This document shows, one piece after another, positions 945-63,904 of a DNA stretch of 64,000 nt; the first letter of the stretch is position 1; each line of letters starts with the position of its first letter. Both the position numbers and the translations under genes were made by a program. The DNA comes from Cryobacterium shii (GTDB lineage: Bacteria > Actinomycetota > Actinomycetes > Actinomycetales > Microbacteriaceae). Location: assembly GCF_004402595.1 (NCBI RefSeq), contig NZ_SOFY01000011.1, positions 62,001-126,000 of the forward strand, given 5' to 3'. Under the pieces are notes generated by a model that had not been told where the DNA came from, made no database searches, and worked only from the letters and a program-made list of their open reading frames with translations.

Positions 945-1039
945 AACCAATTCGACGGAGATTTTGTCGCCGAAGTGCGATTCCGGTCCGTTTCGGCCCC
1001 GTTCGCGCCGGTCCGGGCAAAATCTCCGTCGAATTCGTT
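945..1039 (-). repeat. Palindromic intergenic element, copy 1 (95 bp variant)
   Basis: The ends are AACCAATTCGACGGAG on the left and CTCCGTCGAATTCGTT on the right, giving a stem of about 22 bp. The inner region is 10 bp longer than in the other copies. It lies between the GH130 terminator and the 3' end of csrA, i.e. between convergent genes. The remaining 1040-1135 stretch holds only short direct repeats (CTAGCCGGCCG twice) and no gene that I can see. Confidence 0.85.
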
Positions 1040-1135
1040 GGGGGAACGCGCGCTGGTGCAGGCGAGCGCACGCGCACTGGCGCAGGCTGCGAGGAGACGT
1101 GGGTCAGCTAGACGTGCGCTAGCCGGCCGTGGGTG

Positions 1136-1399
1136 CTAGCCGGCCGGTGTGGGCGGCGGGGTGAGGAGGCCGAGGGTGGCCTTCAGTCGGGCCTCGGCAT
1201 CCGGGTCGGCCTGACCGGCCTGGCTCGCCGTGATGTTCGCCTCGGTGACGGCACGCAGTACCTCGTCGCGCTGGATCTTGACCCCGCGCGGGGCATCGAC
1301 GCCGATGCGGATGCTGTCACCGCGCACATCAAGGACGGTGATGACGATGTCATCACCGATGAGGATCTTCTCCCCCTGTTTGCGTGTTAGAACCAGCAC
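1136..1399 (-). CDS. csrA: Carbon storage regulator CsrA
   Basis: This 87-residue protein begins MLVLTRKQGEKILIGDDI and continues with the IRIGVDAPRGV segment diagnostic of CsrA. CsrA is a small dimeric RNA-binding protein that blocks translation by binding GGA motifs near ribosome binding sites. The C-terminal tail after about residue 62 is longer than in Bacillus and rich in Ala and Pro. It is the last gene of the flagellar operon, 9 bp downstream of the FlhF-like gene. Its likely target is the fliC leader, where two CANGGANG sites are present, and its antagonist FliW is encoded at 31081-31524. Confidence 0.95.
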   Translation of the reverse strand: MLVLTRKQGEKILIGDDIVITVLDVRGDSIRIGVDAPRGVKIQRDEVLRAVTEANITASQAGQADPDAEARLKATLGLLTPPPTPAG

Positions 1400-1408
1400 C
1401 TGTTCAGC

Positions 1409-2398
1409 CTAGCTTGACCGGTTGGCCCGGTCGGTGAGGCTCGGCCTCAAACCCGCCATCGTCGCCGAGGTCGCCTCGGAACCGTCGATCCACCCCACCG
1501 GCAGTCCCAACTCGTCGATCGTCTCCGGCGACGCTGTGGACCCGGCCTCGATCACGGCGACCGCGTCGAGGGAGAGGTGCGCGGACAGGCGCGATACCCA
1601 GGCGGCGGTGTCCTCGGCCTTGCGGCCGGCATCCACGACCACCCAGACCTGGTCTGCGCCCACCGCAGCCAGGATCGCGGCCTCGTCCGCAGCCGCCTCC
1701 CCGGCTTCGTCATCGGACTCCAGGCCGAAGGCCACGAAGACCGTCTCGCCCTGATCCACCGCGCGGGCTCGGGCCGCCAGGGCCGTGCGCCGGTCCGTGA
1801 CCCGTCCGCTCCTCGCCGTAGACAGCACACCGGCGACCAGAGGGGATGATCCGGCGCCGCTCCGGGACGCCATCGCCCGCGCGACCGGGAACGCCGCGTC
1901 GGCCCGACCGATGATCAGCACGAGATCACCGTGCCCGGCCAACGGACGCGGCGGCGTGGCGGGGGCGGCTGCTGCCGGCACCCGTGTGGCCGGTACGGGT
2001 ACGATCTGAGGCCCCGGGCCGCGCTCATCCGTCACCGGACCGGCCGTCGTGAAAGTGAGTTCGTCCATCAGGTGGGCGAAGTCGTCGGAGGCGGTCGACA
2101 GGCGCGGTTCCGCCACCGCCTGCAGGCGGGCTTCGGCCTCGTCCGCCTCGTCCAGCAGTGCCGCGAGCCCGAGTCGCGTCTGCCGATCCGGCTGCACATG
2201 GGCTGCACGTCGCCGGCGCGTGGGCACGGGCACCTCGACCGTCACCTCGAGATGACGGCGGGCGAAGAATCCATGGATGCCGCCCACGGTGACCCGCTCG
2301 GCCGCGACGATGCGGGCATCCGCTCCGTGCTCCAAGAACACGCGAGCCTTCAGCTCCGGCAGGCTGGCACCCTCAAGCTGAAATCGTTTCCGTTCCAC
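1409..2398 (-). CDS. FlhF-like protein lacking the GTPase P-loop
   Basis: The protein has 329 residues. Its first 60 residues (KRFQLEGASLPELKARVFLEHGADARIVAAERV, then GGFFARRHLEVTVEV) match the N-terminal domain of FlhF, the SRP-type GTPase that places flagella in other bacteria. The middle is Pro/Ala-rich. The C-terminal half looks like a Rossmann-type remnant (LVLIIGRADAAFPVARA), but the GxTGxGKTTT loop and other GTPase motifs are missing, so GTP hydrolysis is unlikely. It overlaps the 3' end of flhA by 26 bp and precedes csrA, the position flhF holds in other flagellar operons. I infer a structural or polar-localisation role without enzymatic activity. It could also be a degenerating gene. 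Confidence 0.65.
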   Translation of the reverse strand: MERKRFQLEGASLPELKARVFLEHGADARIVAAERVTVGGIHGFFARRHLEVTVEVPVPTRRRRAAHVQPDRQTRLGLAALLDEADEAEARLQAVAEPRLSTASDDFAHLMDELTFTTAGPVTDERGPGPQIVPVPATRVPAAAAPATPPRPLAGHGDLVLIIGRADAAFPVARAMASRSGAGSSPLVAGVLSTARSGRVTDRRTALAARARAVDQGETVFVAFGLESDDEAGEAAADEAAILAAVGADQVWVVVDAGRKAEDTAAWVSRLSAHLSLDAVAVIEAGSTASPETIDELGLPVGWIDGSEATSATMAGLRPSLTDRANRSS

Positions 2399-4424
2399 GG
2401 ACCACCCCCACGGTCTCGATGCCGACGTTCGCGCTCGTCACCTCGAGGTAGGACAGCACGGGCAGCCCGCCGGCCTGGGCCGACACCATGCGCCGGATCG
2501 CCGGTCGCAGGGCGGGAGCGCAGACCAGTACGGCGGTCAGGCCGCTCTCCTCGACCGCGGCCAGGGAGGACTTGAGCGAACCGAGGATGGCGTCGATCCG
2601 GTGCGGCTCCAGCATGATCTGGGAGCCCTGCTCGGAGGGGCGCATGCCTTCGAGCATGGACTGCTCGAGAGCGGGTTCGATCATGATCACGCGGAGCAGT
2701 CCCTCGTCGAGGTACTGGGCGGTGAGCGCCGGGCCGAGCGCCTGCCTGGCAGCCTCGATCAGCCCCTCCGGGTCGGCCGAGACCTTGGCCCGGAGGGAGA
2801 GCGCCTCGTAAATGCGGGGAAGGTCGTTGATCGGGATGAGCTCGACGAGCAGACCCTGCAGCACACGCTGCACCTCGGCGAGGGAGAGCATCCCGGGGAT
2901 GAGGTCGTCGACGGCGGCGGGATTGACCTGCCGCACGCCGTCGGTGAGCACGCGCACGTCTTCCCGGGTGAGGAGCCGCGCCGCGTTGCCGGTGATGATC
3001 GAGGACAGGTGGGTGATCAGCACCGAGACCCGGTCGATGACCGTCGCGCCGACCATCTCGGCGCTGTGCCGCATCTCGCTCGGCACCCACTTGCCGGCCA
3101 GCCCGAAGACGGGCTCGACCGTTGCGGTGCCGGGCAGCCCGTCGAGGAAGTCGCCGAGGGCGAGGACCTTGCCGGCCGGGGCGAGTCCGCGCCCGGCCTC
3201 GACCCCCGCGATCCGGATCACATACGTCGACGAGGGCAGTTCAACACTGTCCCGGGTGCGCACGGGGGGTACGACCACGCCCAGGTCCATCGCGATTTTG
3301 CGGCGCAGCGCGCGCACCCGCGCGAGCAGGTCATCCTGCGCGCCGGAGACCAGGTCCACGAGGTCGGGGGCGAGCAGGATCTCGAGGGCGTGCACCCGCA
3401 TCGTCTCGATCAGGTCTTCAGGGGTGTCCGACCGGGGTGCCTGGCTCTCCAGGCTCACAGCGGCCTCACGCCCCGCCTGCTCGCGGGCCTCGCCCGCCTT
3501 GATCCGCTGGGAGAACACGATCAGGCCCACCCCGATCACGACGAAGGGGATGATCGGCATGCCCGGGATGAGGGACATCAGCAGCGCGGCGGCGCCGGCG
3601 ATCATCAGGGCGTTGCGGGATTGGGTGAGCTGCGCGGATGCGGTGGCGCCGATGTCGGATTCCACGTTGGAACGCGTCACGATCATGCCGGTGGAGACCG
3701 CCATCAGCAAGGCCGGGATCTGGGTGACGAGGCCGTCGCCGATGGTGAGGAGCGAGTAGGTGCTCATGGCATCGGTGATCGACAGGCCGCGCTGCACCAT
3801 GCCGATCGCGATACCGCCGACCAGGTTGATGATGATGATGATGATCCCGGCGATCGCGTCGCCCTTCACGAACTTGGACGCGCCGTCCATGGCGCCGTAG
3901 AAGTCGGCTTCGGCGGACACCTCGGCTCGGCGTTCCCGGGCCTGGATGTCGGTGATCAGGCCGGCGTTCAGGTCCGCGTCGATCGCCATCTGCTTGCCCG
4001 GCATGGCGTCCAGGGTGAAGCGCGCCCCGACCTCCGCCACCCGCTCAGCTCCCTTGGTGACGACGACGAACTGGATCACGACCAGGATCAGGAAGATCAC
4101 GGCACCGATGATGATCGAGCCGCCGACCGCGACCTGGCCGAAGGAGGCGATGACCTGCCCGGCGTAGCCGTCGCCCAGGACGAGCCGGGTCGAGGCCACG
4201 TTCAGGCCCAGGCGGAACAGGGTGGCCACCAGCAGCAGAGAGGGGAACACGGAGAAATCGAGGGGTTTCTTGACGAACATGGTCGTCAGCAGCACCACCA
4301 GCCCGAGCAGGATGTTGATGATGATCAGCACGTCCAGGAGCACGGCCGGCACCGGAACGACCAGCAGAAGGATGATGCCGACGACGCCGATCGGGACGGC
4401 GAGCTTGGCGAACGTGCTTTTCAT
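2373..4424 (-). CDS. flhA: Flagellar export gate protein FlhA
   Basis: At 683 residues this has the usual FlhA length. The N-terminal half is strongly hydrophobic (about eight membrane segments) with the conserved cytoplasmic stretch AERVAEVGARFTLDAMPGKQMAID around residues 125-150. The C-terminal half forms the cytoplasmic nonamer ring that docks chaperone-substrate complexes. FlhA is the main gate component of the flagellar type III export apparatus and uses the proton motive force. Its start overlaps the flhB stop by 4 bp (ATGA), showing translational coupling. Confidence 0.97.
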   Translation of the reverse strand: MKSTFAKLAVPIGVVGIILLLVVPVPAVLLDVLIIINILLGLVVLLTTMFVKKPLDFSVFPSLLLVATLFRLGLNVASTRLVLGDGYAGQVIASFGQVAVGGSIIIGAVIFLILVVIQFVVVTKGAERVAEVGARFTLDAMPGKQMAIDADLNAGLITDIQARERRAEVSAEADFYGAMDGASKFVKGDAIAGIIIIIINLVGGIAIGMVQRGLSITDAMSTYSLLTIGDGLVTQIPALLMAVSTGMIVTRSNVESDIGATASAQLTQSRNALMIAGAAALLMSLIPGMPIIPFVVIGVGLIVFSQRIKAGEAREQAGREAAVSLESQAPRSDTPEDLIETMRVHALEILLAPDLVDLVSGAQDDLLARVRALRRKIAMDLGVVVPPVRTRDSVELPSSTYVIRIAGVEAGRGLAPAGKVLALGDFLDGLPGTATVEPVFGLAGKWVPSEMRHSAEMVGATVIDRVSVLITHLSSIITGNAARLLTREDVRVLTDGVRQVNPAAVDDLIPGMLSLAEVQRVLQGLLVELIPINDLPRIYEALSLRAKVSADPEGLIEAARQALGPALTAQYLDEGLLRVIMIEPALEQSMLEGMRPSEQGSQIMLEPHRIDAILGSLKSSLAAVEESGLTAVLVCAPALRPAIRRMVSAQAGGLPVLSYLEVTSANVGIETVGVVRGTETISA

Positions 4425-6286: not shown

Positions 6287-6287
6287 G

Positions 6288-6563
6288 TCAGCCGCCGCCG
6301 ATGAGTGAGGGGATCTTCTCGAAGAGAGCGTTGGTGAAGGCGACGATCTCGGAGATCATCCAGTGCCCGGAGATGAGCAGGGCCAGGCAGACCGCGATCG
6401 CCTTGGGCACGAAGGACAGCGTCACCTCCTGGATCTGGGTGATCGACTGGAGAAGGGAAATGGCGAACCCGACGACGAGGGCGGTGATCAGGATCGGGGC
6501 GGACAGCTTGCCGGCGATGATGATGGCCTGCATCCCGATGTCCAGGACGGCGTTGGTGTCCAC
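6288..6563 (-). CDS. fliQ: Flagellar export gate protein FliQ
   Basis: The 91-residue protein has two membrane helices (about residues 15-40 and 50-75) around the conserved SLLQSITQIQEVTLSFVPK motif. This is the standard two-helix FliQ, four copies of which surround the FliP/FliR core of the export gate. It directly abuts fliP. Confidence 0.96.
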   Translation of the reverse strand: MDTNAVLDIGMQAIIIAGKLSAPILITALVVGFAISLLQSITQIQEVTLSFVPKAIAVCLALLISGHWMISEIVAFTNALFEKIPSLIGGG

Positions 6564-8545: not shown

Positions 8546-8547
8546 GT

Positions 8548-11659: not shown

Positions 11660-11745
11660 AGCGAATTCGACGGAGATTTTGCCGGAATCGGGCCCGCACA
11701 CCCCGAAAAGGGTACTTTTCAGGCAGAATCTCCGTCGAATTGGTT
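11660..11745 (+). repeat. Palindromic intergenic element, copy 2 (86 bp)
   Basis: The left end AGCGAATTCGACGGAG pairs with CTCCGTCGAATTGGTT at the right. It starts 7 bp after the flgE stop codon, inside the flagellar operon, and is the only copy between genes that otherwise look co-transcribed. The loop contains a CCCCGAAAAGGGG-like second hairpin. Confidence 0.85.
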
Positions 11746-11751
11746 AGACGC

Positions 11752-12936
11752 CTAGCGCTTCAGGTTCGTCAGTTCCTGGAGTACCTCGTCGGACGTGGTG
11801 ATGATGCGCGCGTTGGCTTGGAAGCCGCGCTGCGCGACGATGAGGTTGGTGAACTCCTGGGAGAGGTCCACGTTGGACATCTCGAGCGCTCCCCCGGTCA
11901 GCGAGCCGAGTCCGCCGGTGCCGGGGGCGCCCAGGGCCGCATTGCCGGAGTTGAAGGTGGACCGGTACTCCGAGGAGCCGGCCTTCTCGAGCCCGCCGGG
12001 GTTGGAGAAGGTCGCGAGGGCGATCCGGCCGATGGCTTCCTGGCCGCCGTTGCTGAACAAACCGACCAGGGTGCCGTCCTTGCCCAGGGTGAAGGACTTC
12101 AGCGTGCCGGCGGCTTTGCCGTTCTGGTCGTTGACGGCAACGGTGGAGAGGCCGGCGAATCCCTCGACGGCGGACAGGTCCACCGTGATGGCGCCGCTGC
12201 CGAACGTGATGTTGGTGGTCGCGGAGGTCTGCTTGCCATCGGCGAAGGTCAGAGCGGCGGATGTCGATGCGGTCGCGCCATCGAGTCCCGTGACCGTCCA
12301 GGCGCCCGGGCCGGTGGACGTGAATGTCAGGTCGAGGGAGCGGGCCGTGCCGGATCCGTCATAGACCTTCACGTCTCGGCTGAACACGGTGCCGGCAGCG
12401 GCGTCGGACGGGAGGTTGCCGCCGACGGATGCAGTCGTGGTTGCCGTGGCTGCCGAGACGGTCTGCAGCGGCAACGTGATGTTCCCCGTCGTTCCACCCT
12501 GGTTGATGACGCCGCCGACGGCGTTCCAACCCTGCACGATGGCGCCTGCCGGGGTGACGAGCCGCCCCTGGGCGTCGAAGTCGAAGGCTCCGGCGCGGCT
12601 GTACAGGGTTTCGCCGCCAAGCTGGGTGACGAAGAATCCGTCGCCGGAGATCATGATGTCGGTGGCCTTGCCGGTGGCCTGGGACGAGCCCTGCGCGAAG
12701 TTGGTGGAGATGCCGGCGACCTTGACTCCGAGTCCGACCTGCGCCGGGTTGGTGCCGCCGACCTCGGCCTGCGGGCCGCCGGCGCCCTGGCTGAGCTGCG
12801 ACAGGGTGTCCTGGAACTGGGTCGCGGATGCCTTGAACGCCGTGGTGTTGACGTTGGCGATGTTGTTGCCGGTGACGTCGAGCATGGTCTGGTGCGATCG
12901 GAGGCCGGAGATACCGGAGTACAGGGAACGAAGCAT
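11752..12936 (-). CDS. flgE: Flagellar hook protein FlgE
   Basis: 394 residues, beginning MLRSLYSGISGLRSHQTMLDVTGNNIANVNTTAFKASATQFQDTL, the axial-protein N-terminus typical of FlgE, and ending SNVDLSQEFTNLIVAQRGFQANARIITTSDEVLQELTNLKR. About 130 subunits form the hook that joins the rod to the filament. The central domain is Thr/Ala/Gly-rich and variable. It lies 86 bp after flgD and is followed at once by palindromic element copy 2. Confidence 0.97.
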   Translation of the reverse strand: MLRSLYSGISGLRSHQTMLDVTGNNIANVNTTAFKASATQFQDTLSQLSQGAGGPQAEVGGTNPAQVGLGVKVAGISTNFAQGSSQATGKATDIMISGDGFFVTQLGGETLYSRAGAFDFDAQGRLVTPAGAIVQGWNAVGGVINQGGTTGNITLPLQTVSAATATTTASVGGNLPSDAAAGTVFSRDVKVYDGSGTARSLDLTFTSTGPGAWTVTGLDGATASTSAALTFADGKQTSATTNITFGSGAITVDLSAVEGFAGLSTVAVNDQNGKAAGTLKSFTLGKDGTLVGLFSNGGQEAIGRIALATFSNPGGLEKAGSSEYRSTFNSGNAALGAPGTGGLGSLTGGALEMSNVDLSQEFTNLIVAQRGFQANARIITTSDEVLQELTNLKR

Positions 12937-36069: not shown

Positions 36070-36154
36070 AACCAATTCGACGGAGATTCTGCTCTAAAAA
36101 CAGACATTCCGACCGTTGGAGCCTGATTTGGGCAGAATCTCCGTCGAATTCGTT
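36070..36154 (-). repeat. Palindromic intergenic element, copy 3 (85 bp)
   Basis: The ends are AACCAATTCGACGGAG and CTCCGTCGAATTCGTT. It lies 35 bp after the sufU stop codon. On the minus strand it aligns base for base in length with copies 4, 5, 6, 7 and 8. Confidence 0.88.
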
Positions 36155-36189: not shown

Positions 36190-36708
36190 CTACGGACCGA
36201 GCAGGGCCGCCTCGAACGCGACCCAGGCCAGCATGGCGCACTTGACCCTGGCCGGGTAGCGGGAGACTCCCCCGAAGGCGGCGGCGTCGCCGAGCACCTC
36301 TTCGTCGGGTTCGATGGTGCCGCGGGAACGCAGCATCTCCCGGAAGGTGTCGAGCAGGGCACGCGACTCCGCCACGGTGGTCCCGCGCACGCTGTCGCTG
36401 AGCACGGAGGCGGATGCCATCGAGATCGAGCATCCGTCGCCGCGCCAGACGAGCTCGTCGATCACCGCATCGCCATCCGCATCACCGTCGGCCCGATCCG
36501 GATCGGCGCGCACGCCCATGCGCACCGTCACCTCGTCGCCGCAGGTCGTGTTGACCTGGTGCGACTCGGTCAGGTGCAGCCCCCGGGCATCCGCTGCGGC
36601 CGCAGCCTCCGCCAGGGGAGGCAGCTCGTCCGGCGAGGCGCCGTGCCGGGACTTGGCGTGGTCGAGGATGATCTGCTGGTACAGCTGCTGCATGGCGCTG
36701 TTGGTCAT
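36190..36708 (-). CDS. sufU: Fe-S cluster assembly scaffold/sulfur carrier SufU
   Basis: 172 residues with the three zinc-binding Cys of SufU in context: NTTCGDEVTV, WRGDGCSISMASASVLSD and ARVKCAMLAWVAFEAAL. SufU accepts sulfur from SufS by zinc-ligand swapping. A short Asp/Gly/Ala-rich insert (RADPDRADGDADGDA) follows the first Cys region. It is coupled to sufS by an ATGA overlap, the usual Gram-positive pair. An upstream extension of the frame lies inside sufS and is a shadow. Confidence 0.93.
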   Translation of the reverse strand: MTNSAMQQLYQQIILDHAKSRHGASPDELPPLAEAAAAADARGLHLTESHQVNTTCGDEVTVRMGVRADPDRADGDADGDAVIDELVWRGDGCSISMASASVLSDSVRGTTVAESRALLDTFREMLRSRGTIEPDEEVLGDAAAFGGVSRYPARVKCAMLAWVAFEAALLGP

Positions 36709-38196: not shown

Positions 38197-38853
38197 ATGG
38201 AGCACGTGAACGCAGCAGCGAGCAATCCAGCGAGCAAGTCGACGGGCGAGGCGACGGGCAATGCGATGACGCCGGCCGCGTCGCCGCCTCCTGCCCGGCA
38301 GCGGTCCGAGCATCCGTCGCAGCCCCCGCCGCAGCATCCGTCGCAGCCCCCGCTTCGGGCCCCGGCGCACCCTCGGACCGCGCGCATCGCGCAGGTGATC
38401 GTGGCGTCGACCCGGGCGGCGGGCGGCGTCTACCCCGACCGCACCGGCCCCAGCATCGACGCCTGGCTCGGCGAGCGCGGCTGGACGCTGCGGGAGCGCC
38501 GCGTGGTTCCCGACGGCGACGCGGTCGGCGCGGCCCTCGCCGCGGCCGTGGATGCCGGCTGCGACCTGGTCGTCACCACCGGCGGAACGGGTGTCAGCCC
38601 CCATGACCACACGCCCGAGCAGACGCTGCCGTTCCTCGACCGGCAACTCCCCGGCCTGATGGAGGAAATGCGCCGCCGCGGCTCGTCCTCGACTCCCCTG
38701 GCCGTGCTCTCCCGCGGTTACGCCGGAATCTGCCGGGGCCGCACCCTGATCATCAACCTGCCGGGATCCCCGGGCGGCGTGAAAGACGGCCTGGGCCTGC
38801 TCGACGACGTGCTCGACCACATCCTGGACCAGTTGCACGGTCTGGACCACTAG
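38197..38853 (+). CDS. MoaB/Mog-type molybdopterin adenylyltransferase
   Basis: 218 residues. From about residue 62 it is a MoaB/Mog domain: AQVIVASTRAAGGVYPDRTGPSIDAWL, LVVTTGGTGVSPHDHTPEQTLPFLDRQLPGLMEEMRRRG and LIINLPGSPGGVKDGL. It would adenylylate molybdopterin before molybdate insertion by MoeA. The N-terminal 60 residues are a Pro/Gln/Ser-rich tail not typical of the family, so the true start may lie further in. It lies between suf genes and xanthine dehydrogenase, away from the other moa genes. Element copy 4 begins 6 bp after its stop. Confidence 0.88.
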   Translation: MEHVNAAASNPASKSTGEATGNAMTPAASPPPARQRSEHPSQPPPQHPSQPPLRAPAHPRTARIAQVIVASTRAAGGVYPDRTGPSIDAWLGERGWTLRERRVVPDGDAVGAALAAAVDAGCDLVVTTGGTGVSPHDHTPEQTLPFLDRQLPGLMEEMRRRGSSSTPLAVLSRGYAGICRGRTLIINLPGSPGGVKDGLGLLDDVLDHILDQLHGLDH

Positions 38854-38859: not shown

Positions 38860-38944
38860 AACGAATTCGACGGAGATTTTGCCCGAATCGGCGCCAGAAC
38901 GTTGAAAACTCGCGTTTTAGATCAAAATCTCCGTCGAATTGGTT
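38860..38944 (+). repeat. Palindromic intergenic element, copy 4 (85 bp)
   Basis: The ends are AACGAATTCGACGGAG and CTCCGTCGAATTGGTT, directly after the moaB-like gene. The following stretch up to 39153 is GC-rich and contains a possible -10 (TAATCT) near 39069 for the xanthine dehydrogenase genes but no gene. Confidence 0.88.
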
Positions 38945-43006: not shown

Positions 43007-44533
43007 GTGACACCCTCCAGCCGGGTCTACCGCGGCCACATCTTCCACGTCGCCGGCTCCCCCACGGTCGCCACCGCCCGCGAGAACCTGGTGTCCCTGC
43101 CGGACGGCGCCCTGGTCACGACCAAGACGGGCCGGATCGCCTGGGTGGGCAGCTTCGCCGACCTGCCCGCGGCCTTCGCGGGCCTGCCGGTGACCGACAA
43201 TCGCGGCGGCTTCATCCTGCCCGGCTTCGTGGACACGCACCTGCACTTTCCGCAGACCTACTCCACGGATGCCTACGGCGGCGGCCAACTGCTGGAGTGG
43301 CTCGACAACTGCGTCTTCCCGGCGGAGGCCCGGCTCGGCGACCCCGCGTTCGGTGAGCGCATCGCCCGGGACTTCACCCGGCGCCGCATCGCCGCGGGCA
43401 CGACCAGCGCCCTCGTCTTCGGCTCGGCCTTCCCCCACGCCCAGGACGCCCTGTTCGCCGAGTCGCAGCGGGCCGGCCTGCGCCTGGTCAGCGGCCGCGG
43501 CATCCAGACCGTGGGCTCGGAGCCCTCCCGGGCCCTGCTCACGGGCGAGACCGAGGCGCTCGACCTGGTCTCGGCCGAGATCGACCGCTGGCACGCCGTG
43601 GACACCGGCGACCCGGCGACCGCACTGCTGCAGGTGGCCGTGGTGCCCCGGTTCAGCCTGTCGGTTACGCCGACGACCCTGGCCGGCCTCGGCGATCTCT
43701 ACGACGGGGTGCGCGGCCGCGGCGTCTACTTCCACAGCCACCTGAACGAGAACAACCGGCCCGGCACCGGCGAGATCGACGCCGTGAAGTCGGTCTACCA
43801 GGTCGACACGTACCTGGACACGTACGACGGCCGGTTCCTGCCGGGGTCCGCCCGGGGCGGGTCGAGCCTGCTGGGGCGGCGCAGCATCCTCGCCCACGCC
43901 GTGCACTGCGAGGACGAAGAGCTCGCCCGGCTGGCCGAGACCGGCACCTCGGTGGCGCACTGCCCGACCTCGCAGCAGTTCCTCGGCTCGGGCACCATGC
44001 CGTGGCTGCGCACCACGTCGTTCGGCGTGAACGTGGCCATCGGCTCGGACATCGGCGCCGGCGACGAGTGGCTGGTGTCGCGGGTGCTCAACGACTGCTT
44101 CAAGGTGCACCTGTCCGAGCCCGGTGACGCGGGCCTGTCGATCGACCCCGCCGCTCTGCTCTTCACGGGCACACTGGCCGGGGCGCGCGCGCTGGACATG
44201 GAGACCCGGTTCGGCAACTTCGACGTGGGCAAGGACGCCGACTTCCTGCTGATCGAGCCGGACCGCTGGGAGCCGCTCGCCAGCGTGCTGGAACGCGGCA
44301 TCCGTGCCGACGACGAGGCGATGGCCACCGAACAGACCCTGTTCGCGCTGCTGCTGGCTCTCCGCCAGCCGGCGATCACCGGCGTCTACGTGCGCGGCCG
44401 CCGGGTGCTCGCCCCGGAATTGGCCCCGCCCCGGGCACCCTCACCGTCCCCGTCCCGTCCCCGTCCCGTCCCCGTCCCGTCCCCGTCCCGTCCCGGCGGC
44501 GACCCAACGAATTCGACGGAGATTCTGCTTTAA
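43007..44533 (+). CDS. guaD: Guanine deaminase
   Basis: 508 residues of the amidohydrolase family. Zinc and substrate motifs are PGFVDTHLHFPQTYSTDAYGGGQLLEWL, YFHSHLNENNRPGTGEI, ILAHAVHCEDEELARLAETGTSVAHCPTSQQFLGSG and VAIGSDIGAGDEW. It converts guanine to xanthine for the adjacent xanthine dehydrogenase. The start is GTG 43007. The natural end is probably near YVRGRRVLAPEL: the last 35 residues or so come from an 11-bp tandem repeat and then from palindromic element copy 5, which supplies the TAA stop. Confidence 0.92.
   Translation: MTPSSRVYRGHIFHVAGSPTVATARENLVSLPDGALVTTKTGRIAWVGSFADLPAAFAGLPVTDNRGGFILPGFVDTHLHFPQTYSTDAYGGGQLLEWLDNCVFPAEARLGDPAFGERIARDFTRRRIAAGTTSALVFGSAFPHAQDALFAESQRAGLRLVSGRGIQTVGSEPSRALLTGETEALDLVSAEIDRWHAVDTGDPATALLQVAVVPRFSLSVTPTTLAGLGDLYDGVRGRGVYFHSHLNENNRPGTGEIDAVKSVYQVDTYLDTYDGRFLPGSARGGSSLLGRRSILAHAVHCEDEELARLAETGTSVAHCPTSQQFLGSGTMPWLRTTSFGVNVAIGSDIGAGDEWLVSRVLNDCFKVHLSEPGDAGLSIDPAALLFTGTLAGARALDMETRFGNFDVGKDADFLLIEPDRWEPLASVLERGIRADDEAMATEQTLFALLLALRQPAITGVYVRGRRVLAPELAPPRAPSPSPSRPRPVPVPSPSRPGGDPTNSTEILL
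44451..44494 (+). repeat. Four 11-bp tandem repeats in the 3' end of guaD
   Basis: The unit CGTCCCGTCCC occurs four times in a row. Because 11 is not a multiple of three, any copy-number change shifts the reading frame of the guaD tail. Confidence 0.9.
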
Positions 44534-44590
44534 AAAGACCCGTAGCATCCGTTTCGGCCCGAAATCGTCAAAATCTCCGTCGAATTCGTT
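44506..44590 (-). repeat. Palindromic intergenic element, copy 5 (85 bp)
   Basis: Both ends carry the CG form (AACGAATTCGACGGAG and its complement), unlike the other copies, which have one CC/GG end. The first 28 bp are translated as the end of guaD, including the stop codon. Inner bases match the other copies in minus orientation. Confidence 0.88.
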
Positions 44591-46436: not shown

Positions 46437-46721
46437 GTGCCGAAAACAGATGAACGCGTCGATCTGCGAGAAGCCGTCGTCCTCGACCGCCCCTGGATCA
46501 CCATCGTCTGGGACGACCCAGTGAACCTGATGAGCTATGTCTCCTACGTGTTCCGCAGCTACTTCGGCGTCTCCGCCGAGGAAGCCGAACGTCTGATGCT
46601 GCAGGTACACAACAACGGCCGGGCCGTGGTCGCGACCGGCAACCGGGAAGCGATGGAACGCCACGTGGAAGCGATGCACGGCTACGGGCTCTGGGCCACC
46701 CTCGCCAAGGACGAGACCTGA
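46437..46721 (+). CDS. clpS: ATP-dependent Clp protease adaptor ClpS
   Basis: 94 residues with [70 protein letters not shown], the complete ClpS domain including the N-degron pocket (DDPVNLM) and the ClpC-binding face. It delivers N-end-rule substrates to ClpC. The start is GTG 46437. Its stop overlaps the DUF2017 start by one base, the standard actinobacterial pair. Confidence 0.95.
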
Positions 46722-47449
46722 TGGAATTCCTGCCCGCAGGAGGGGAAACCGGTCGGGACCGCTCGAACGGCCGGGCCGGCAAGGACAGCCAGGCCGGCAA
46801 GGGCGGCCATGCCGGTCAGGACGGCCAGGCCGGCAAGGGCGGCCATGCCGGTCAGGACGGCCAGGCCGGTCAGGCCGGTCAGGCCGGTCAGGCCGGCCGT
46901 GCCAGCCCCACCGGCGAGAGCGCCGGCAGCGTGACCGCGCAGTTCGAACCGGCCGAGGTCGGGCTGCTCCGCATGGCCGCACGCCAGCTGATCGAGCTGC
47001 TGGAGGCCGCGGAGTCCCACGCGCTCGGGACATCGGTCGACCCTGCCCTGCGACGGCTGCTGCCGGATGCCTACACCGACGACCCGGAGGCCGCCGCGGA
47101 ATTCCGCCGGTTCACGGCCGGCGACCTGCTCGAACGCAAGGTGCGGAATGCTCGCGTCGTGATCGCCACACTCGGAGAGGAGTTGGCGGACGAGATCGCC
47201 GACGACGCGCCCGAGACGCTCAACGACGACGACTTCGACGAGCCGGCGACGACGATCACCCTCGACCGGGACGACGTGCAGTCCTGGCTCCGCACGCTGA
47301 CCGATCTGCGCCTGACCCTGGCCGAACGCCTGGAGATCTCGCCCGACGGGGTCGTTCACCTCGCCGAGGACGAGGCGCCCTTCCTGCACGGCATCTACGA
47401 GTGGCTCGGCATGGTGCAGGAGTCCCTGGTCTACGCCATCGACGTCTAG
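46721..47449 (+). CDS. DUF2017 protein with a collagen-like Gly-X-Y insert
   Basis: 242 residues. From about residue 70 the protein is an all-helical DUF2017 domain (FEPAEVGLLRMAARQLIELLEAAESH ... DPALRRLLPDAYTDDPEAAAEFRRFTAGDLLERK), which always follows clpS in actinobacteria and has no assigned function. Residues 18-60 are unusual: fourteen triplets, nearly all starting with Gly, rich in Gln, Lys, His and Ala, encoded by a repeat of about 36 bp. This insert is not normal for the family and is probably strain specific. Confidence 0.88.
   Translation: MEFLPAGGETGRDRSNGRAGKDSQAGKGGHAGQDGQAGKGGHAGQDGQAGQAGQAGQAGRASPTGESAGSVTAQFEPAEVGLLRMAARQLIELLEAAESHALGTSVDPALRRLLPDAYTDDPEAAAEFRRFTAGDLLERKVRNARVVIATLGEELADEIADDAPETLNDDDFDEPATTITLDRDDVQSWLRTLTDLRLTLAERLEISPDGVVHLAEDEAPFLHGIYEWLGMVQESLVYAIDV
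46771..46900 (+). repeat. Repeats encoding the Gly-X-Y insert of DUF2017
   Basis: A 36-bp unit containing AAGGGCGGCCATGCCGGTCA occurs twice, followed by four 9-bp CAGGCCGGT units. All periods are multiples of three, so the frame is kept. Confidence 0.88.
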
Positions 47450-47482: not shown

Positions 47483-47567
47483 AACCAATTCGACGGAGAT
47501 ACTGCTCTAAAAACCCGGATCCGGACTGTTTCAGCCCGATTCCGGCAAAAACTCCGTCGAATTCGTT
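47483..47567 (-). repeat. Palindromic intergenic element, copy 6 (85 bp)
   Basis: The ends are AACCAATTCGACGGAG and CTCCGTCGAATTCGTT. It lies between convergent DUF2017 and glycosyltransferase genes. Short repeats (TCCCGTGTGAC, CAGCCCGGC) flank it on both sides. Confidence 0.88.
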
Positions 47568-47628: not shown

Positions 47629-48942
47629 TCAGAGCGCGGGCACCGCCCGCAGCGCGGCATACGCGCGCCGCGGCCCGGCCCCGCACGCAAGGGACTCGCC
47701 GAGCCGGTCCAGCCGCAGCCGGGCGTCGCCGTGGAGGGCGAGCAGCGCCGCCGCCGCAACCCGGATCTCCTCGGCCGTCGCCGTGTTGGGCGCCAGGGCG
47801 AGCCCGAAACCGGCCCGCTCGATCGCCGCCCCCCCGGCGAACTGATCCGTTGAGAAGGGCAGCACCAGCAGCGGCACGGCCGAGGTCATGGCCTCGGTGA
47901 CGCTGTTGTTGCCGCCGTGCGTCACCGCCAGGGCGGAGTGCCGCAGCACCGTCACCTGCGGGAGGAAGCCTCGCACCAGCCACGAGTCCGGCACGGGGCC
48001 GAGCTCGGCCGGGTCGGAGGCCCCGGTCGCGAGGGCGACCCGCACGTCGAGGGCGGCCAGCGCCTCGGCCACGCGGGCCAGCACGTCGGCCCGCACCGAC
48101 AGGAAGCTGCCGAAGCTGACGTACACGATCGGCCGGTCGCTCTCCACCGCCAGCCACCGTTCCACCTCGTCGTCCACGGCCTCCGCGCGCACGGCGGAGC
48201 CGAGGAACGCGTGCGGAGGCAACAGGTCCGCCCGCTTCGGGTCGTGCAACTCGGCCGGATAGTTCAGCAGCAGGATGTCGCCGGCCTCCTGGAACGCATC
48301 CGTGCTCGGGATCATCGACGGGTCGAGGGCGAGGAGGGCGTCGTTCCACTGGCGGGTGAACGAGTCGCGCACGTCCTCGCAGGTGTGGTGCAGCGCGTCG
48401 AGCTCGGCGGGCTCGGGCGAGAAGGCGTCCGGCCACTCGGGCGGGTAGCCGTAGACCTCGTCGCCGACGGGCAGGGCAGACGGATGCCCGATCACGACGT
48501 CCGCATGCCGCACCCCCGCACTGAGCAGGGCCAGCCGGGCGCTGAACGCCAGGTGGTCGACGATCACGTGGTCCGGGCGCACCTCGGCGACGATCCGCTG
48601 CACCTCCCTCGCCACCTCCACCGGGTTCCAGAGCAGGTCGCTGCTGCGGGCCTCGGCCTGGAAGCGGAGGGTGTCGACCATGCCGCGGCGGGTGGCGTCG
48701 AAGAACCCGCGCAGGGCGTCGTCCTCGCCCTTGGGCTGTTCTTCGGCGCGGATCGTGCCGGGGTTGGAGCCGCGGCCCAGCTGCAAGTTCACCCGTTCGA
48801 AGCCGAAGGCCGTCACGATGTCGGCCGTGGCGGGGCCGCTGGCCACCACCACGCGTTCGCCCGCCTCCAACCAGGCTGTGCCGAGCGTGGCGAGCGGAAA
48901 CAGGTGGGACGCGTAGTCCGGGCTGATGATGAGCAGCGTCAT
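47629..48942 (-). CDS. UDP-glycosyltransferase / MGT-type glycosyltransferase
   Basis: 437 residues of the GT-B fold. The N-terminal acceptor domain begins LLIISPDYASHLFPLATLGTAWLEAGERVVVASG. The C-terminal donor site is VTHGGNNSVTEAMTSAVPLLVLPFSTDQFAGGAAIERAGFG, the signature of family GT1 enzymes that glycosylate macrolides, lipids or carotenoids. The acceptor is unknown. The start overlaps the 3' end of the HEAT-glycosyltransferase gene by 4 bp, so the two enzymes probably act together. Confidence 0.9.
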   Translation of the reverse strand: MTLLIISPDYASHLFPLATLGTAWLEAGERVVVASGPATADIVTAFGFERVNLQLGRGSNPGTIRAEEQPKGEDDALRGFFDATRRGMVDTLRFQAEARSSDLLWNPVEVAREVQRIVAEVRPDHVIVDHLAFSARLALLSAGVRHADVVIGHPSALPVGDEVYGYPPEWPDAFSPEPAELDALHHTCEDVRDSFTRQWNDALLALDPSMIPSTDAFQEAGDILLLNYPAELHDPKRADLLPPHAFLGSAVRAEAVDDEVERWLAVESDRPIVYVSFGSFLSVRADVLARVAEALAALDVRVALATGASDPAELGPVPDSWLVRGFLPQVTVLRHSALAVTHGGNNSVTEAMTSAVPLLVLPFSTDQFAGGAAIERAGFGLALAPNTATAEEIRVAAAALLALHGDARLRLDRLGESLACGAGPRRAYAALRAVPAL

Positions 48943-51384: not shown

Positions 51385-53688
51385 ATGACACGACGCGCTC
51401 CGATCGACGACATCAACGAAGACAACCTGGTCGTCAAGAAGCCGAAGAAGTCCGCGGCCGGCGTCGAGGCCGTCGCCGTCGCCCTCGAACGCGGCATCGC
51501 GCAGGCCGGCGTCGGCCGCACGGCCAAGGCGCTGCTCCGGCTGAACCAGCGCGACGGCACCGACTGCCCCGGCTGCGCCTGGCCGGAGTCGCAGGGCCAC
51601 CGCAAGACGGCGGAGTTCTGCGAGAACGGCGCGAAGGCCGTCGCCGAGGAGAGCACCCTGCGTACCGTGACCCCGGCGTTCTGGGCCGAGCACTCGATCG
51701 AGGAACTCGCCACCAAGACCGAGTACTGGCTGGGCAACCAGGGCCGCATCACGCATCCGATGGTCATCCGTCCCGGCGACACGCACTACTCGCAGATCTC
51801 CTGGAACGCCGCGTTCGAACTCATCGGCGAGCAGATCCGCGCCACCGTGCCCGACCGCACCGTCTTCTACACCTCGGGCCGCACCGCGAACGAGTCGGCG
51901 TTCCTGTACCAGCTGTTCGCCCGCTCGATCGGCACGAACAACCTGCCCGACTGCTCCAACATGTGCCACGAATCCTCCGGAAGCGCACTGAACCCGACCA
52001 TCGGCATCGGCAAGGGAACCGTGTCCCTCGAGGACCTCCACCAGGCCCAGCTGATCCTGGTCGTCGGCCAGAACCCCGGCACCAACCATCCACGGATGCT
52101 GTCGGCCCTGAAAGAGTGCAAGGACAACGGCGGCAAGATCGTCGCCGTCAACCCGCTGCCGGAGGCCGGGCTGTTCAACTTCAAGGACCCGCAGTCGGTG
52201 TCCGGACTGATCGGCGACGGCACCGCCCTCTCCGACGAGTACCTGCAGATCAAGGTCGGCGGCGACCTGGCCCTGTTCCAGGCCCTCGGCCACCTGCTGC
52301 TCGAAGAGGAAGAGCGCGTGCCCGGATCCGTCGTGGACGCTGAGTTCGTGGCGGCGAACACGCAGGGCCTCGAGGACTACCGCGCGGCCCGCAAGAGCAT
52401 CGACTGGGCCGAGACCGAAAAGGCCACCGGCCTGAACGTGCTGCAGATCACCACCGTGGCGCGCATGATGGCGGACTCCAAGGCCACGATCATCTGCTGG
52501 GCGCTGGGCCTGACCCAGCAGCCGCACTCGGTGAACACGCTCAAGGAGATCATCAACCTGCTGCTGCTGCAGGGCAACTTCGGCAAGCCCGGCGCCGGCG
52601 CCTGCCCGGTGCGCGGCCACTCCAATGTGCAGGGCGACCGCACCATGGGCGTCTGGGAGAAGCCGAAGGAGGCGATGCTCGCCGCTTTGGACACGGAATT
52701 CGGCATCAACGCCCCGCGCGAGCACGGCCTCGACTCGGTGGACACGATTGCGGCGTTCGAGAACGACGACGTCGACGTGTTCGTCGCCATGGGCGGCAAC
52801 TTCGTCCTCGCCGGCTCCGACACCGTGGCCCTGGAGACCGCGATGCAGCGGGTCGGGCTCACCGTGCACGTGTCGACCAAGCCGAACCGGTCGCACATCA
52901 TGCACGGCCGGACCTCGCTGATCCTGCCGACGCTCGGGCGCACCGACACCGACGACAAGCATCCGGGCGGACGCCAGGTGCTCTCGGTCGAGGACTCGAT
53001 GTCGGTCGTGCGCACCACGCAGGGGCGCCTCGACCCGGTCTCCGAACACCTGCTCGCCGAGCCGGTCATCGTCGCCCGGATGGCCAGCGCCACCCTCGGA
53101 GAGGACCACGTGATCGACTGGAAGGCCATGGCCGACGACTACGACGTCATCCGTGACCGCATCTCCCGGGTGATCCCCGGCTTCCAGGACTTCAACACGC
53201 GCCTCAAGACCAAGAACGGGTTCGTGCTGCCCAACCCGCCGCGGGACACCCGCAGCTTCGCCACGGACATCGGCCGGGCCCGGTTCACGGTCAGCCCGCT
53301 CGAGTACCTGACCCCGCCTCCCGGGCACCTGATCCTGCAGACGATGCGCAGCCACGACCAGTACAACACCACCTTCTACGGCCTGGACGATCGGTACCGC
53401 GGCATCTCCGGCGGCCGCCGCGTCATCCTGATCCACGAGGACGACGTGACCGAGCTGGGGTTCACGGACCGCGACATGGTCGACGTGATCAGCACCTTCC
53501 GGGGCGAGGAACGCCGCGCCAACGAGTTCCGCCTGGTGGTCTACCCCACTCCGCGGGGCTGCGCGGCGGCGTACTTCCCCGAGGCGAACGCCCTGGTGCA
53601 CCGCGAGCTCGTGGCGCGCGAGTCGAACACCCCCGGCTACAAGGCCATGTCGGTGCGGTTCATCCCGCACGAAACCGTGCCCGCCTAG
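51385..53688 (+). CDS. FdhF/YdeP-type molybdopterin oxidoreductase alpha subunit
   Basis: 767 residues. CPGC at 61-64 lies in DGTDCPGCAWPE, typical of the YdeP subgroup, and no four-Cys [4Fe-4S] motif is visible. The Mo-bis-MGD fold follows: WNAAFELIGEQIR, TSGRTANESAFLYQLFARSIGTNN, LPDCSNMCHESSG with Cys194-His195 where formate dehydrogenases have Sec/Cys-His, and VVGQNPGTNHPRM. No in-frame TGA is present, so no selenocysteine. It probably oxidises formate or a related small molecule. The electron partner is not encoded here. GGAGGA lies just before the ATG. fdhD and the molybdenum cofactor genes follow nearby. Confidence 0.9.
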   Translation: MTRRAPIDDINEDNLVVKKPKKSAAGVEAVAVALERGIAQAGVGRTAKALLRLNQRDGTDCPGCAWPESQGHRKTAEFCENGAKAVAEESTLRTVTPAFWAEHSIEELATKTEYWLGNQGRITHPMVIRPGDTHYSQISWNAAFELIGEQIRATVPDRTVFYTSGRTANESAFLYQLFARSIGTNNLPDCSNMCHESSGSALNPTIGIGKGTVSLEDLHQAQLILVVGQNPGTNHPRMLSALKECKDNGGKIVAVNPLPEAGLFNFKDPQSVSGLIGDGTALSDEYLQIKVGGDLALFQALGHLLLEEEERVPGSVVDAEFVAANTQGLEDYRAARKSIDWAETEKATGLNVLQITTVARMMADSKATIICWALGLTQQPHSVNTLKEIINLLLLQGNFGKPGAGACPVRGHSNVQGDRTMGVWEKPKEAMLAALDTEFGINAPREHGLDSVDTIAAFENDDVDVFVAMGGNFVLAGSDTVALETAMQRVGLTVHVSTKPNRSHIMHGRTSLILPTLGRTDTDDKHPGGRQVLSVEDSMSVVRTTQGRLDPVSEHLLAEPVIVARMASATLGEDHVIDWKAMADDYDVIRDRISRVIPGFQDFNTRLKTKNGFVLPNPPRDTRSFATDIGRARFTVSPLEYLTPPPGHLILQTMRSHDQYNTTFYGLDDRYRGISGGRRVILIHEDDVTELGFTDRDMVDVISTFRGEERRANEFRLVVYPTPRGCAAAYFPEANALVHRELVARESNTPGYKAMSVRFIPHETVPA

Positions 53689-53729: not shown

Positions 53730-53814
53730 AACCAATTCGACGGAGATTCTCGGCTAAAACCGCTGTTCTGGGGTTGCCAGGGCCGATTTGGCCAAAATCT
53801 CCGTCGAATTCGTT
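53730..53814 (-). repeat. Palindromic intergenic element, copy 7 (85 bp)
   Basis: The ends are AACCAATTCGACGGAG and CTCCGTCGAATTCGTT, 41 bp after the FdhF-like stop. Inner bases share the TTTTAGC and AATCGGCC blocks with copies 4 and 8 on the opposite strand. Confidence 0.88.
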
Positions 53815-56518: not shown

Positions 56519-56586
56519 GTCTCCACACTAACTGCCGCCCCGAGCGGCAAAAGGTCGCCGGGACGGTGAGAAATCCCCGGGACGCG

Positions 56587-56619: not shown

Positions 56620-56638
56620 CCCGTTTGGTGGGGCGCGG

Positions 56639-59290: not shown

Positions 59291-59292
59291 CC

Positions 59293-61115: not shown

Positions 61116-61117
61116 CC

Positions 61118-61777: not shown

Positions 61778-61783
61778 AACCGA

Positions 61784-62071
61784 ATGAGCACCTCCGCCCC
61801 GCTTCCCCCCGAGGCCCTCGACGACTGGCTGGCGGCCCTCGCCGCGCGGCTGGGCCTCGACCCGGCCGACGTCCCGGTGGGCACCCTGCTCGACGTGGCC
61901 CGCGACGTGGCCCACAATGTGGCCCGGCCCGCCGCGCCGCTGAGCACGTTCCTGGTCGGGCTGGCCGCCGCCCGCGCCGGGGGTACCGCCGCCGACATTG
62001 AACGCGCCTCCGCCCTGGCCACCGAGCTCGCCCTGGCATGGCCGGCCGACTACCCGGACACGACCCGCTGA
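61784..62071 (+). CDS. DUF6457 domain protein
   Basis: A 95-residue helical protein (LDDWLAALAARLGLDPADVPVGTLLDVARDVAHNVARPAAPLSTFLVGLAAARAGG) of the DUF6457 family, which is regularly next to mobA in actinobacteria. The role is unknown, but the conserved linkage suggests help in dinucleotide cofactor synthesis or delivery. The stop overlaps the moaD ATG by one base. Confidence 0.82.
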   Translation: MSTSAPLPPEALDDWLAALAARLGLDPADVPVGTLLDVARDVAHNVARPAAPLSTFLVGLAAARAGGTAADIERASALATELALAWPADYPDTTR

Positions 62072-62310
62072 TGGCCACGGTGCGCTTCTTCGCGGCCGCC
62101 GCCGAGGCCGCCGCCACCGACGGCACCGCCCTCGACGCGGCCACGATCGGCGACCTGCGCGCCCGGCTCGTGGCCCGCTACGGGGCCGAGTTCGAACGCA
62201 TCCTGAACCGGTGCTCGCTGCTGGTGAACGGCACCCGGGCCACGGATGACGCGGTGCCGCTCGCCGGCAGCGACGCCGTCGACGTGCTGCCGCCCTTCGC
62301 CGGCGGCTGA
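62071..62310 (+). CDS. moaD: Molybdopterin synthase sulfur carrier subunit MoaD
   Basis: 79 residues of ubiquitin-like fold (ATVRFFAAAAEAA ... LLVNGTRATDDAVPLAGSDAVDVLPPFAGG). The C-terminal GG is the site of thiocarboxylate formation by MoeB. Its partner MoaE is not in the window. I chose ATG 62071, which overlaps the DUF6457 stop; an in-frame ATG at 62038 adds a non-conserved leader. Confidence 0.92.
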   Translation: MATVRFFAAAAEAAATDGTALDAATIGDLRARLVARYGAEFERILNRCSLLVNGTRATDDAVPLAGSDAVDVLPPFAGG

Positions 62311-62474
62311 CCCGGCCCGCCACCGTTCGGCTACCGCCGGGACGAGGTTCGAGCCGGACCGGATCGGAATCATTTTTCACGGTGTTCGCGCGTTGTCGCA
62401 TCCCGGCCGGCCGGTCAAGGTGGTAGCTATGCGGGCCTTTGGCGCCCGGCAGCGCACTCGGACGAAGGAAGAAC

Positions 62475-63800
62475 ATGTCTGTCGCACCGCCCACGCAGTA
62501 CGCCGCGAACCTCCAACCGGACCTGTCGAACTGGGACCCGGAACACGACGAGACCTGGGATCCGAAGCTCGCCTGGCGCACCCTCTGGATCACCACCTTC
62601 AGCCTGACGCTCAGTTTCGCCACCTGGTACCTCGTCAGCGCGATCGCCCCGCGCCTGAACGACATCGGCTACTCGCTGACTCCCGGCCAGCTGTACTGGC
62701 TGGTGGCCCTGCCCGGACTCGCCGGCGGCCTGCTGCGCCTGGTCTTCATGTTCCTGCCGCCGATGATGGGCACCCGGGCCCTCGTGGCCATGTCCTCGGC
62801 CCTGCTCGTACTGCCCATGATCGGCTGGACCCTCGCCGCCCGCGACACCTCCACCCCGTACTGGGTGCTGCTCGCGCTGTCCTTCTCGGCCGGAATCGGC
62901 GGCGGCACGTTCTCCGGCTTCATGGCATCCACCAGCTATTTCTTTCCCAAACGCCTCGCCGGCACCGCGCTCGGCCTGCAGGCCGGCCTCGGCAACTTCG
63001 GCATCGGCCTGATGCAGCTGCTGCTGCCCTGGGTCGTGGGCTTCGGCCTCCTCGGCACGGCGGCCCTCACCCCGCAGAGCAGCGCCGCGGGCGACCTGGT
63101 CTGGCTGCACAACGGCGGCCTGGTGCTCATCCCCTGGGCGCTGCTCGCCGTCGTGCTCTCGGTCGTGTACCTGCGGCGGGTGCCGGTCACGGCCAACTTC
63201 CGCCAGCAGATGGACATCTTCGGGGTCAAGCACACCTGGATCATGACGGCCATCTACCTGATGAGCTTCGGCGCCTACAGCGGCCTGGCCGCCCAGATGG
63301 GCCTGATCATCCTCAACGTCTACGGCGACTTCCCGGATGCCCCGAACCCGCTCGCGTTCGCGTTCATCGGCCCCGTCGTGGGCGCCCTGGTGCGCGCGGC
63401 CAGCGGGCCGTTCTGCGACCGGTGGGGCGGCGCGATCTTCACCTTCGTCGGCGGCCTCGGCATGGTGGCGGGAACCGCGTTCACGTCCTTCTTCCTCACC
63501 CCGACCAGCGTGGACGAGTTCTGGGGCTTCCTCGCCGGCATGATCGTGATCTTCTTCTTCGCGGGACTGGCCAACGCCGGCACGTTCAAGCAGATGCCGA
63601 TGATCTTCCCTAAGCGACAGGCCGGCGGCGCCATCGCCTGGACCTCCGCGATCGCGGCCTTCGGCCCGTTCATCGTCGGCATCTCGCTCACGGCCATCAG
63701 CCCGACCGCGTTCTTCATCGGCTGCACCGTGTTCTGCGTCTTCTGCACCTGGCTCGTTTGGTTCTACTACGCCCGCAAGGGCGCTCCCTTCCCCAGCTGA
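62475..63800 (+). CDS. narK: Nitrate/nitrite transporter NarK
   Basis: 441 residues with about twelve membrane helices of the major facilitator superfamily. The nitrate signature blocks are GIGGGTFSGFMASTSYFFPKRLAGTALGLQAGLGNFGIGLMQLLLP (first half) and GLANAGTFKQMPMIFPKRQAGGAIAWTSAIAAFGPFI (second half). A soluble N-terminal stretch of about 30 residues precedes the first helix. GAAGGAAG lies before the ATG at 62475. It is separated from the Moco operon by 164 bp, so it may have its own promoter. A molybdenum nitrate reductase is likely encoded beyond the window. Confidence 0.94.
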   Translation: MSVAPPTQYAANLQPDLSNWDPEHDETWDPKLAWRTLWITTFSLTLSFATWYLVSAIAPRLNDIGYSLTPGQLYWLVALPGLAGGLLRLVFMFLPPMMGTRALVAMSSALLVLPMIGWTLAARDTSTPYWVLLALSFSAGIGGGTFSGFMASTSYFFPKRLAGTALGLQAGLGNFGIGLMQLLLPWVVGFGLLGTAALTPQSSAAGDLVWLHNGGLVLIPWALLAVVLSVVYLRRVPVTANFRQQMDIFGVKHTWIMTAIYLMSFGAYSGLAAQMGLIILNVYGDFPDAPNPLAFAFIGPVVGALVRAASGPFCDRWGGAIFTFVGGLGMVAGTAFTSFFLTPTSVDEFWGFLAGMIVIFFFAGLANAGTFKQMPMIFPKRQAGGAIAWTSAIAAFGPFIVGISLTAISPTAFFIGCTVFCVFCTWLVWFYYARKGAPFPS

Positions 63801-63819
63801 CCGCGCCGCGCCGCGCCCT

Positions 63820-63904
63820 AACGAATTCGACGGAGATTCTGCCCGAATCGGCCCCAGATACCCCGAAGACGCGCTTTTACAGCAAAATCTCCGTCGAATT
63901 GGTT
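63820..63904 (+). repeat. Palindromic intergenic element, copy 8 (85 bp)
   Basis: The ends are AACGAATTCGACGGAG and CTCCGTCGAATTGGTT, 19 bp after narK. It is very close in sequence to copy 4, with ATTCTGCCCGAATCGG on the left and TTTTA before the right arm. Confidence 0.88.

Follow-up and report, generated by a model that had tools for sequence, protein, structure and literature searches.

Repetitive extragenic palindromic (REP) sequences and bacterial interspersed mosaic elements (BIMEs) of enterobacteria lie between genes, often after their 3' ends, and a role in supercoiling or nucleoid organization has been proposed for them. Here we describe an 85-bp palindromic element with a comparable position, present in eight copies (Table 1) in a 64,000-nucleotide stretch (hereafter the window) of the cold-living bacterium Cryobacterium shii (NZ_SOFY01000011.1, positions 62,001 to 126,000), which belongs to contig C52 in a draft genome (G000) of 3.49 Mb and 91 contigs. 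All eight copies listed in the original prediction, which had been made from the sequence of the window, were recovered, six of them 85 bp, one 86 bp and one 95 bp long. The closest described system is the REPIN (REP doublet forming a hairpin): like the GI family of Pseudomonas fluorescens SBW25, our element combines conserved inverted arms, a fixed distance between them, a variable spacer and about 100 copies, and it shares with REPINs the many extragenic copies, the tandem clusters, the species-specific arms and the use as a target by an insertion sequence (IS) (PMC3116915, PMC6006769). It differs in that the arms are not hairpins, the spacer is unpaired and phased at 10 bp, length changes by one helical turn at a time, and the host belongs to the actinobacteria. 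BIMEs are mosaics of 21-65 nt REPs (PMC6006769), whereas the element is a single 85-bp unit of rigid length. With moderate confidence, we regard it as a REPIN-like miniature repeat that is confined to the genus, has a fixed length and is retained as a binding site, at which a protein would hold both arms on one face of bent DNA.

Each element consists of two inverted 22-bp arms (positions 1-22 and 64-85) and a 41-bp interior. Among 149 copies of 85 bp, the arms were nearly invariant and the interior variable, as had been predicted from the window. The A/T content of the interior peaked at positions 28, 38, 48 and 58 in these 149 copies, and the four peaks were also visible in the C. shii copies without averaging both strands. 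The mean periodogram had its maximum at 10.0 bp, with a power of 1.46 vs. 0.26 for shuffled interiors. All four tracts were present in 65 of the 91 C. shii copies of 85 bp (three tracts in 22, two in 4), compared with 2.2% of shuffled interiors. When any length from 60 to 130 bp was allowed, C. shii copies measured only 84-86 bp (88 copies) or 95-96 bp (3 copies) and those of other species 85-87 bp (108), 92 bp (1) or 95 bp (1), and a 96-bp copy read by eye as carrying one additional A/T tract. Using a dinucleotide wedge model, we obtained end-to-end ratios of 0.927 for the elements, 0.968 for their interior-shuffled versions and 0.984 for random 85-mers of the window, and 144 of 156 copies were more curved than their own shuffled versions.

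The two halves of the interior (23-42 and 44-63) did not pair overall above the expectation from column composition in the 149 copies, since 13 of the 20 facing pairs fell below it and the largest excess was 0.42 vs. 0.31 (40/46); an RNA-structure reading of the interior was rejected on this ground. Together with the interior phase and the helical-turn steps in length, this lack of interior pairing suggests that the working form of the element is double-stranded DNA seen from one side. The sequence of the spacer is largely free but its helical phase and number of turns are not, which points to a DNA-protein complex. Of the functions first proposed, a site for a DNA-binding protein agrees best with the phased interior, the lengths in helical turns and the constraint on the arms, and we treat the element as such a predicted site. 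The element also has a direction. The complementary pair at positions 4/82 is rarer than column composition predicts (0.36 vs. 0.49), and the AACC/AACG end mismatch seen in the window recurred in 107 of 171 copies of 85-86 bp (38/49 in C. shii, 69/122 in other species). The asymmetric center was likewise confirmed, as the interior of a left-out copy predicted the orientation set by its AACC end in 29 of 35 C. shii copies and 47 of 63 others, while 100 random relabellings of direction reached at most 26 and 42, respectively.

The C. shii genome contains 125 exact AATTCGACGGAG...CTCCGTCGAATT arm pairs. Such pairs were found in 19 of 57 Cryobacterium genomes, C. shii included, and in none of 43 genomes of other genera of the family or order. 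A covariance model (R1) built from 36 copies and run inside the genus only (E 0.001; 79 candidates scored per genome, both strands counted, stricter filters) matched 24 of the 57 genomes, three of them with only 1-4 matches. Outside Cryobacterium, two sequence patterns were searched, the exact two-arm pair above and a looser core pattern, TTCGACGG-N55-59-CCGTCGAA. Among 398 family genomes, the core pattern matched 5 of 10 sampled Cryobacterium, one of which (G055) had a single place that is not element-like, and 11 of 388 genomes of other genera, with 1-2 places each; a backwards control pattern matched 2 of 398, once each. The places outside the genus lacked A/T tracts by eye and appear chance-like. 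In a named genome collection, 97 of 97 stretches among the matches listed were named Cryobacterium. The copy at 36070, used as the only query, had no match in plasmid and phage collections, Rfam 15 gave no match at gathering score in the window, and no title describing this family was found in the open literature among the matches listed. Separately, a viral contig of IMG/VR (L156:172-265) bears a longer copy, 102 bp with its outer ends.

A scan for both arms (44 positions, spacing 83-87) was carried out on 729 kb of C. shii DNA, the window included, whose element density is not an estimate for the genome because these stretches were mostly picked around element matches. It retrieved 87 places with 0-4 mismatches (0, 1, 2, 3 and 4 mismatches in 33, 27, 14, 11 and 2 copies), none with 5-8 and 13 with 9-17; the reversed-sequence control had no place up to 17 mismatches. 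Strongly decayed copies are thus few, though the interiors are old. The high copy number and the conservation of the arms in relatives bear out the original prediction that the eight copies form a family.

Arm constraint was also evident at an orthologous site. The element at 38860 is present in C. shii and in five other Cryobacterium genomes and absent in three (G008, G032, G026). At this site, the arms of the five were 98-100% identical to the window copy, and their interiors, aligned without gaps, only 44-59%, overall no closer than unrelated copies within the genome (average 51%); the flanking intergenic DNA aligned only partly. A pair of dispersed copies, 98% alike inside but with unrelated flanks and a break at the AAC and GTT ends, shows that copying takes in exactly the 85-bp unit. 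The absence of target-site duplications (TSDs) noted in the window extended to the whole set, with no repeat of at least 3 bp in 232 flank pairs (232 of 233 copies had flanks; 2.4 expected at 3 bp). Repeats of 2 bp numbered 41, with 44.4 expected, so that any TSD would measure 0-2 bp. This test supersedes a looser list of 371 flank pairs that included false elements (44, 8, 2, 1 and 0 repeats of 2 to 6 bp; 36.6, 7.6, 3.0, 0.7 and 0.2 expected). Taken together, the arm constraint, the copy pair and the lack of flank duplication indicate that the unit is copied and its arms are then held.

These observations bear on the possibility that the element is a miniature inverted-repeat transposable element (MITE) moved by the DDE transposase of a past or present IS with the same ends, its phased interior only helping the ends to meet in the transpososome. 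Its shortness, terminal inverted repeats, fixed length, directional ends and precise-ended dispersed copies with unrelated flanks are those of bacterial MITEs. Unlike a MITE, it has no detected TSD and no visible parent IS: inspected C. shii arms pair at about 85 or 95 bp or end at an IS-interrupted contig end, and no IS with AACSAATTCGACGGAG ends was seen at them among the matches listed (100 of 261 arm places). Moreover, arms kept across six species at an orthologous site while the interior drifts would not be expected of dead copies. We consider this origin unlikely.

With genes called by a home-made codon scorer in the window and other stretches, each of the eight copies in the window has the 3' end of a called gene at a distance of no more than about 110 bp. 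The distribution around genes was tested on 93 of 106 C. shii copies, after exclusion of 10 at stretch edges and 3 in called genes; for one of the latter (L320), the reading frame runs across undetermined bases, and we do not regard it as an in-gene copy. The 93 copies were located between convergent (36), tandem (49) or divergent (8) genes, whereas intergenic length predicts fractions of 0.198, 0.571 and 0.231 (p = 2.8e-6), and they lay at a median of 50 bp from a gene 3' end and 117 bp from a 5' end. A larger set of 178 copies, to which other species contributed many, comprised 59 convergent, 91 tandem and 8 divergent cases, with 4 in called genes and 16 at edges. The enrichment between convergent genes and the rarity between divergent ones may point to a role at the ends of transcription units.

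The view that all copies lie between genes was correct for most of them. However, the window copy at 44506 overlaps a gene end and provides the TAA stop (44531-44533) of the gene called at 43007-44533 (+), and others stand in frame inside genes. An 86-bp copy is in frame in a xylulokinase gene (TIGR01312 above cut-off) in C. shii and G050, two of four genomes aligned. A methyltransferase-like gene, for which no NCBIfam model reaches its cut-off, carries an in-frame copy, also of 86 bp, in 7 of 10 aligned genomes (G000, G008, G012, G025, G039, G050, G056); at the element site, G042 has a different repeat, and G026 and G032 have nothing. In both genes, the copies occupy a low-complexity linker. 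Rickettsia palindromic elements are also found in frame inside protein-coding genes, with a different sequence and host, and unlike them most copies of our element are intergenic. At the xylulokinase site of G026 and G032 (L177/L178), a possibly decayed remnant was observed (CGGAGAGTCC...AAGAATCTCCGTC in G026), which depends on the alignment.

The gene-end position and the phased A/T tracts would also suit a BIME-like site where the DNA is wrapped or bent not by a dedicated factor but by a general nucleoid protein such as gyrase or HU/IHF. General nucleoid proteins should need less specific sites than these long, nearly invariant arms, which moreover changed in concert between species, and we judge this explanation improbable. 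REPs themselves are reported to be bound by IHF, DNA polymerase I and gyrase (PMC6006769).

In the mechanism that we favor, the 85-bp unit spreads through the genome by copying with precise ends, as the pair with unrelated flanks shows. Once inserted, its arms remain nearly unchanged, while the interior retains little more than A/T tracts spaced 10.0 bp apart and an overall element length near 85 bp (rarely 95 bp). Because the working form seems to be double-stranded DNA seen from one side, we propose that the two arms are bound by a protein complex and the DNA between them is bent. A single DNA-binding protein or complex acting in trans would recognize the arm core TTCGACGG and keep the two arms on one face of the helix, the phased tracts bending the intervening DNA into a tight loop, while the outer end mismatch and the interior polarity would make the complex directional. 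More speculatively, it could act in chromosome organization at transcription-unit ends, for example by capturing a supercoil or a small loop of DNA, or as a barrier to read-through. A stronger form of this proposal, possible if rather doubtful in our opinion, is a nucleosome-like, sequence-specific wrapping or looping station at transcription-unit ends that spread as a mobile element and was then kept by host selection; a dedicated protein would grip both arms and the DNA would close a single tight loop, for which 85 bp would be the normal size and 95 bp the next one allowed.

Several observations weigh against a protein site kept by the host. Neither the binding protein nor the copying enzyme was identified in this analysis, and a selfish element selected only for copying could also keep its ends, length and bendability. 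The function would be dispensable in the genus, as 33 of the 57 Cryobacterium genomes have no R1 match. Turnover is fast: the copy at 53730 was absent at its site in all eight relatives compared, and the one at 36070 was missing in the three relatives with both flanks placeable. G039 has the copy at 44506, and G008 and G032 lack it (the other five were not placeable). For the copy at 47483, two contigs of G039 (an assembly 87% complete and 7% contaminated) span the site and one of them carries it; it is missing in the other seven genomes. The arms of these two shared G039 copies are only 93% and 86% identical, respectively. The interiors share 52% identity vs. 39% in a phase-keeping shuffle, indicating common ancestry, so part of the shared phase may be inherited rather than selected. 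The length rule has exceptions, with single copies of 92, 98, 99 and 102 bp, and 12 of 156 copies were not more curved than their own shuffles. The 13 places with 9-17 arm mismatches may be decayed copies, and the depletion between divergent genes could merely mean that promoters tolerate insertions badly.

A true REPIN, that is, a REP doublet mobilized by a once-per-genome RAYT (TnpA_REP) transposase and without a host role, would account for inverted arms at a fixed distance, about 125 copies and the other shared traits named above, and GI 16-mer starts 71 bp apart imply a unit of about 87 bp, close to 85 (PMC3116915). Nevertheless, five arms folded alone as DNA reached only 0 to -1.2 kcal/mol, not better than shuffles. 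The GT[AG]G tetranucleotide expected at the REP foot, which atypical classes also lack (PMC6006769), was not found, the arms starting with AACS or GTACC and no such motif lying just outside. REPIN spacers have compensatory pairing (PMC3116915) that is absent here. As for the transposase, an E. coli RayT probe, which may be too distant, matched nothing in 16,049 Cryobacterium open reading frames (ORFs; best E 0.14), a search that covered Cryobacterium DNA including the flanks, some of them short, of 106 C. shii copies and not the whole genome for Y1_Tnp. Pfam scans of 223 neighbor proteins covered, among the matches listed, the 25 commonest of about 230 families each. Three RAYT candidates from an HUH regular expression were discarded (one without a Pfam family, a cytochrome b and a pyridine nucleotide-disulphide oxidoreductase). 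We consider a true REPIN quite unlikely; of the REP-like mobile element first suggested, the organization and the copying are supported, but hairpin arms, foot and spacer pairing as in REPs are lacking.

Least probable of all is an element that works at the RNA level, with a 22-bp hairpin at the 3' end of mRNAs serving to stop, protect or process them. In its favor, the window copies lie near gene 3' ends, copies are enriched between convergent genes, and four of them folded as RNA at -30.6 to -44.9 kcal/mol. Against it, the outer stem is not followed by a T-run, the interior is unpaired and the end mismatch is over-represented; nor is it obvious what a 10-bp phase or lengths stepping by helical turns would mean in RNA. 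In addition, the arms are intact in copies inside the xylulokinase (2 genomes) and methyltransferase-like (7/10) reading frames. The terminator or mRNA stabilizer of the original prediction is disfavored as a general function. Integron attC sites, which were considered because of the AAC...GTT ends and the gene-end position, have an RYYYAAC-type box in their consensus; they were rejected, because the elements are dispersed among core loci, in some cases in frame within genes, and such a box is missing from the flank columns.

The element touches long-standing questions about REP repeats, namely whether they are selfish or functional and what purpose the spacer serves. About a hundred natural variants of a putative DNA-bending device are available in each high-copy genome. 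The genus also provides material for comparison, since sister species have a second arm type and much of the genus naturally lacks the element.

Table 1. Copies of the 85-bp element in the window, in-frame copies elsewhere and C. shii contig ends carrying the insertion sequence.
Feature	Location	Strand	Length (bp)	Ends and context
Element copy	945..1039	+	95	Longer by one helical turn; AACC first; flanked by convergent called genes 1-837 (+) and 1136-1399 (-)
Element copy	11660..11745	-	86	6 bp off 3' end of gene 11752-12936 (-)
Element copy	36070..36154	+	85	AACC first; 35 bp past 3' end of gene 36190-36708 (-)
Element copy	38860..38944	-	85	6 bp past stop of gene 38395-38853 (+)
Element copy	44506..44590	.	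85	AACG at both ends
Element copy	47483..47567	+	85	AACC end first; convergent genes called at 46721-47449 (+) and 47629-48942 (-)
Element copy	53730..53814	+	85	AACC first; 41 bp past stop of gene 51385-53688 (+)
Element copy	63820..63904	-	85	19 bp past stop of gene 62475-63800 (+)
In-frame copies	L001:699-2321; L319:4598-6454; L065, L070, L189-L198			
Contig ends with IS	G000 C28, C29, C41, C43, C46, C49, C52, C54			Stretches L289-L309

Other arm types were found in the genus. Genomes G040, G003 and G022 have no exact arm pairs of the first type, yet they score with R1. The copies of G003 and G040 (30 and 28, again of 85 bp) read GTACCATTCGACGGWGTT...AACWCCGTCGAATGGTAC, with arms GTACCATTCGACGGWG, and their tracts occupy the same four positions in the same numbering, in a profile averaged over both strands. 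In G022, four copies start close to ACCRTTCGACGGAGATT. Variant-arm copies of G003 and G040 often stand at least two in a row, mostly 124-204 bp apart and at gene boundaries (seven stretches). Such doublets and triplets were located on L223, L225, L228, L230 and L232, and seemingly syntenic G040 and G003 contigs differ in having single vs. double copies. The idea that the element is a cassette boundary in these clusters was dropped, because the contigs resemble normal syntenic stretches of genes in which elements are doubled. Yet another arm type, GTAACGTCGGAGATT, was observed in the intergenic region matching the 38860 site in G044 and G050 (L265, L271).

Several C. shii contigs terminate in a common sequence fused to a cut element. 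A 94-bp end of this IS was searched in ten genomes and recovered in 7 copies in C. shii, 13 in G025 and 1 in G012. Its junctions lay inside an arm in 19 of 21 cases (6/7, 13/13 and 0/1, respectively), mostly at GAGATTYT or a close variant. The G012 copy is the one full copy, outside any element, and encodes a 419-aa protein with the Pfam domain DDE_Tnp_ISL3 (E 3.6e-66); judging from the shared 94-bp end, the C. shii and G025 copies are probably the same IS. At two C. shii contig ends, GAGATACT and its complement were found beside opposite IS ends, which is consistent with an 8-bp duplication. All 14 GAGATTYT sites of the window, both strands considered, fall inside elements and none outside, so the octamer alone could explain the preference. 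This ISL3-type element in the arms would be a further case of an IS targeting an extragenic palindrome; the part of an earlier survey cited here names five IS families, ISL3 not among them (PMC1525189). The ISL3 transposase at L291:94-1353 (-) contains a long FG dipeptide repeat near its C-terminus.

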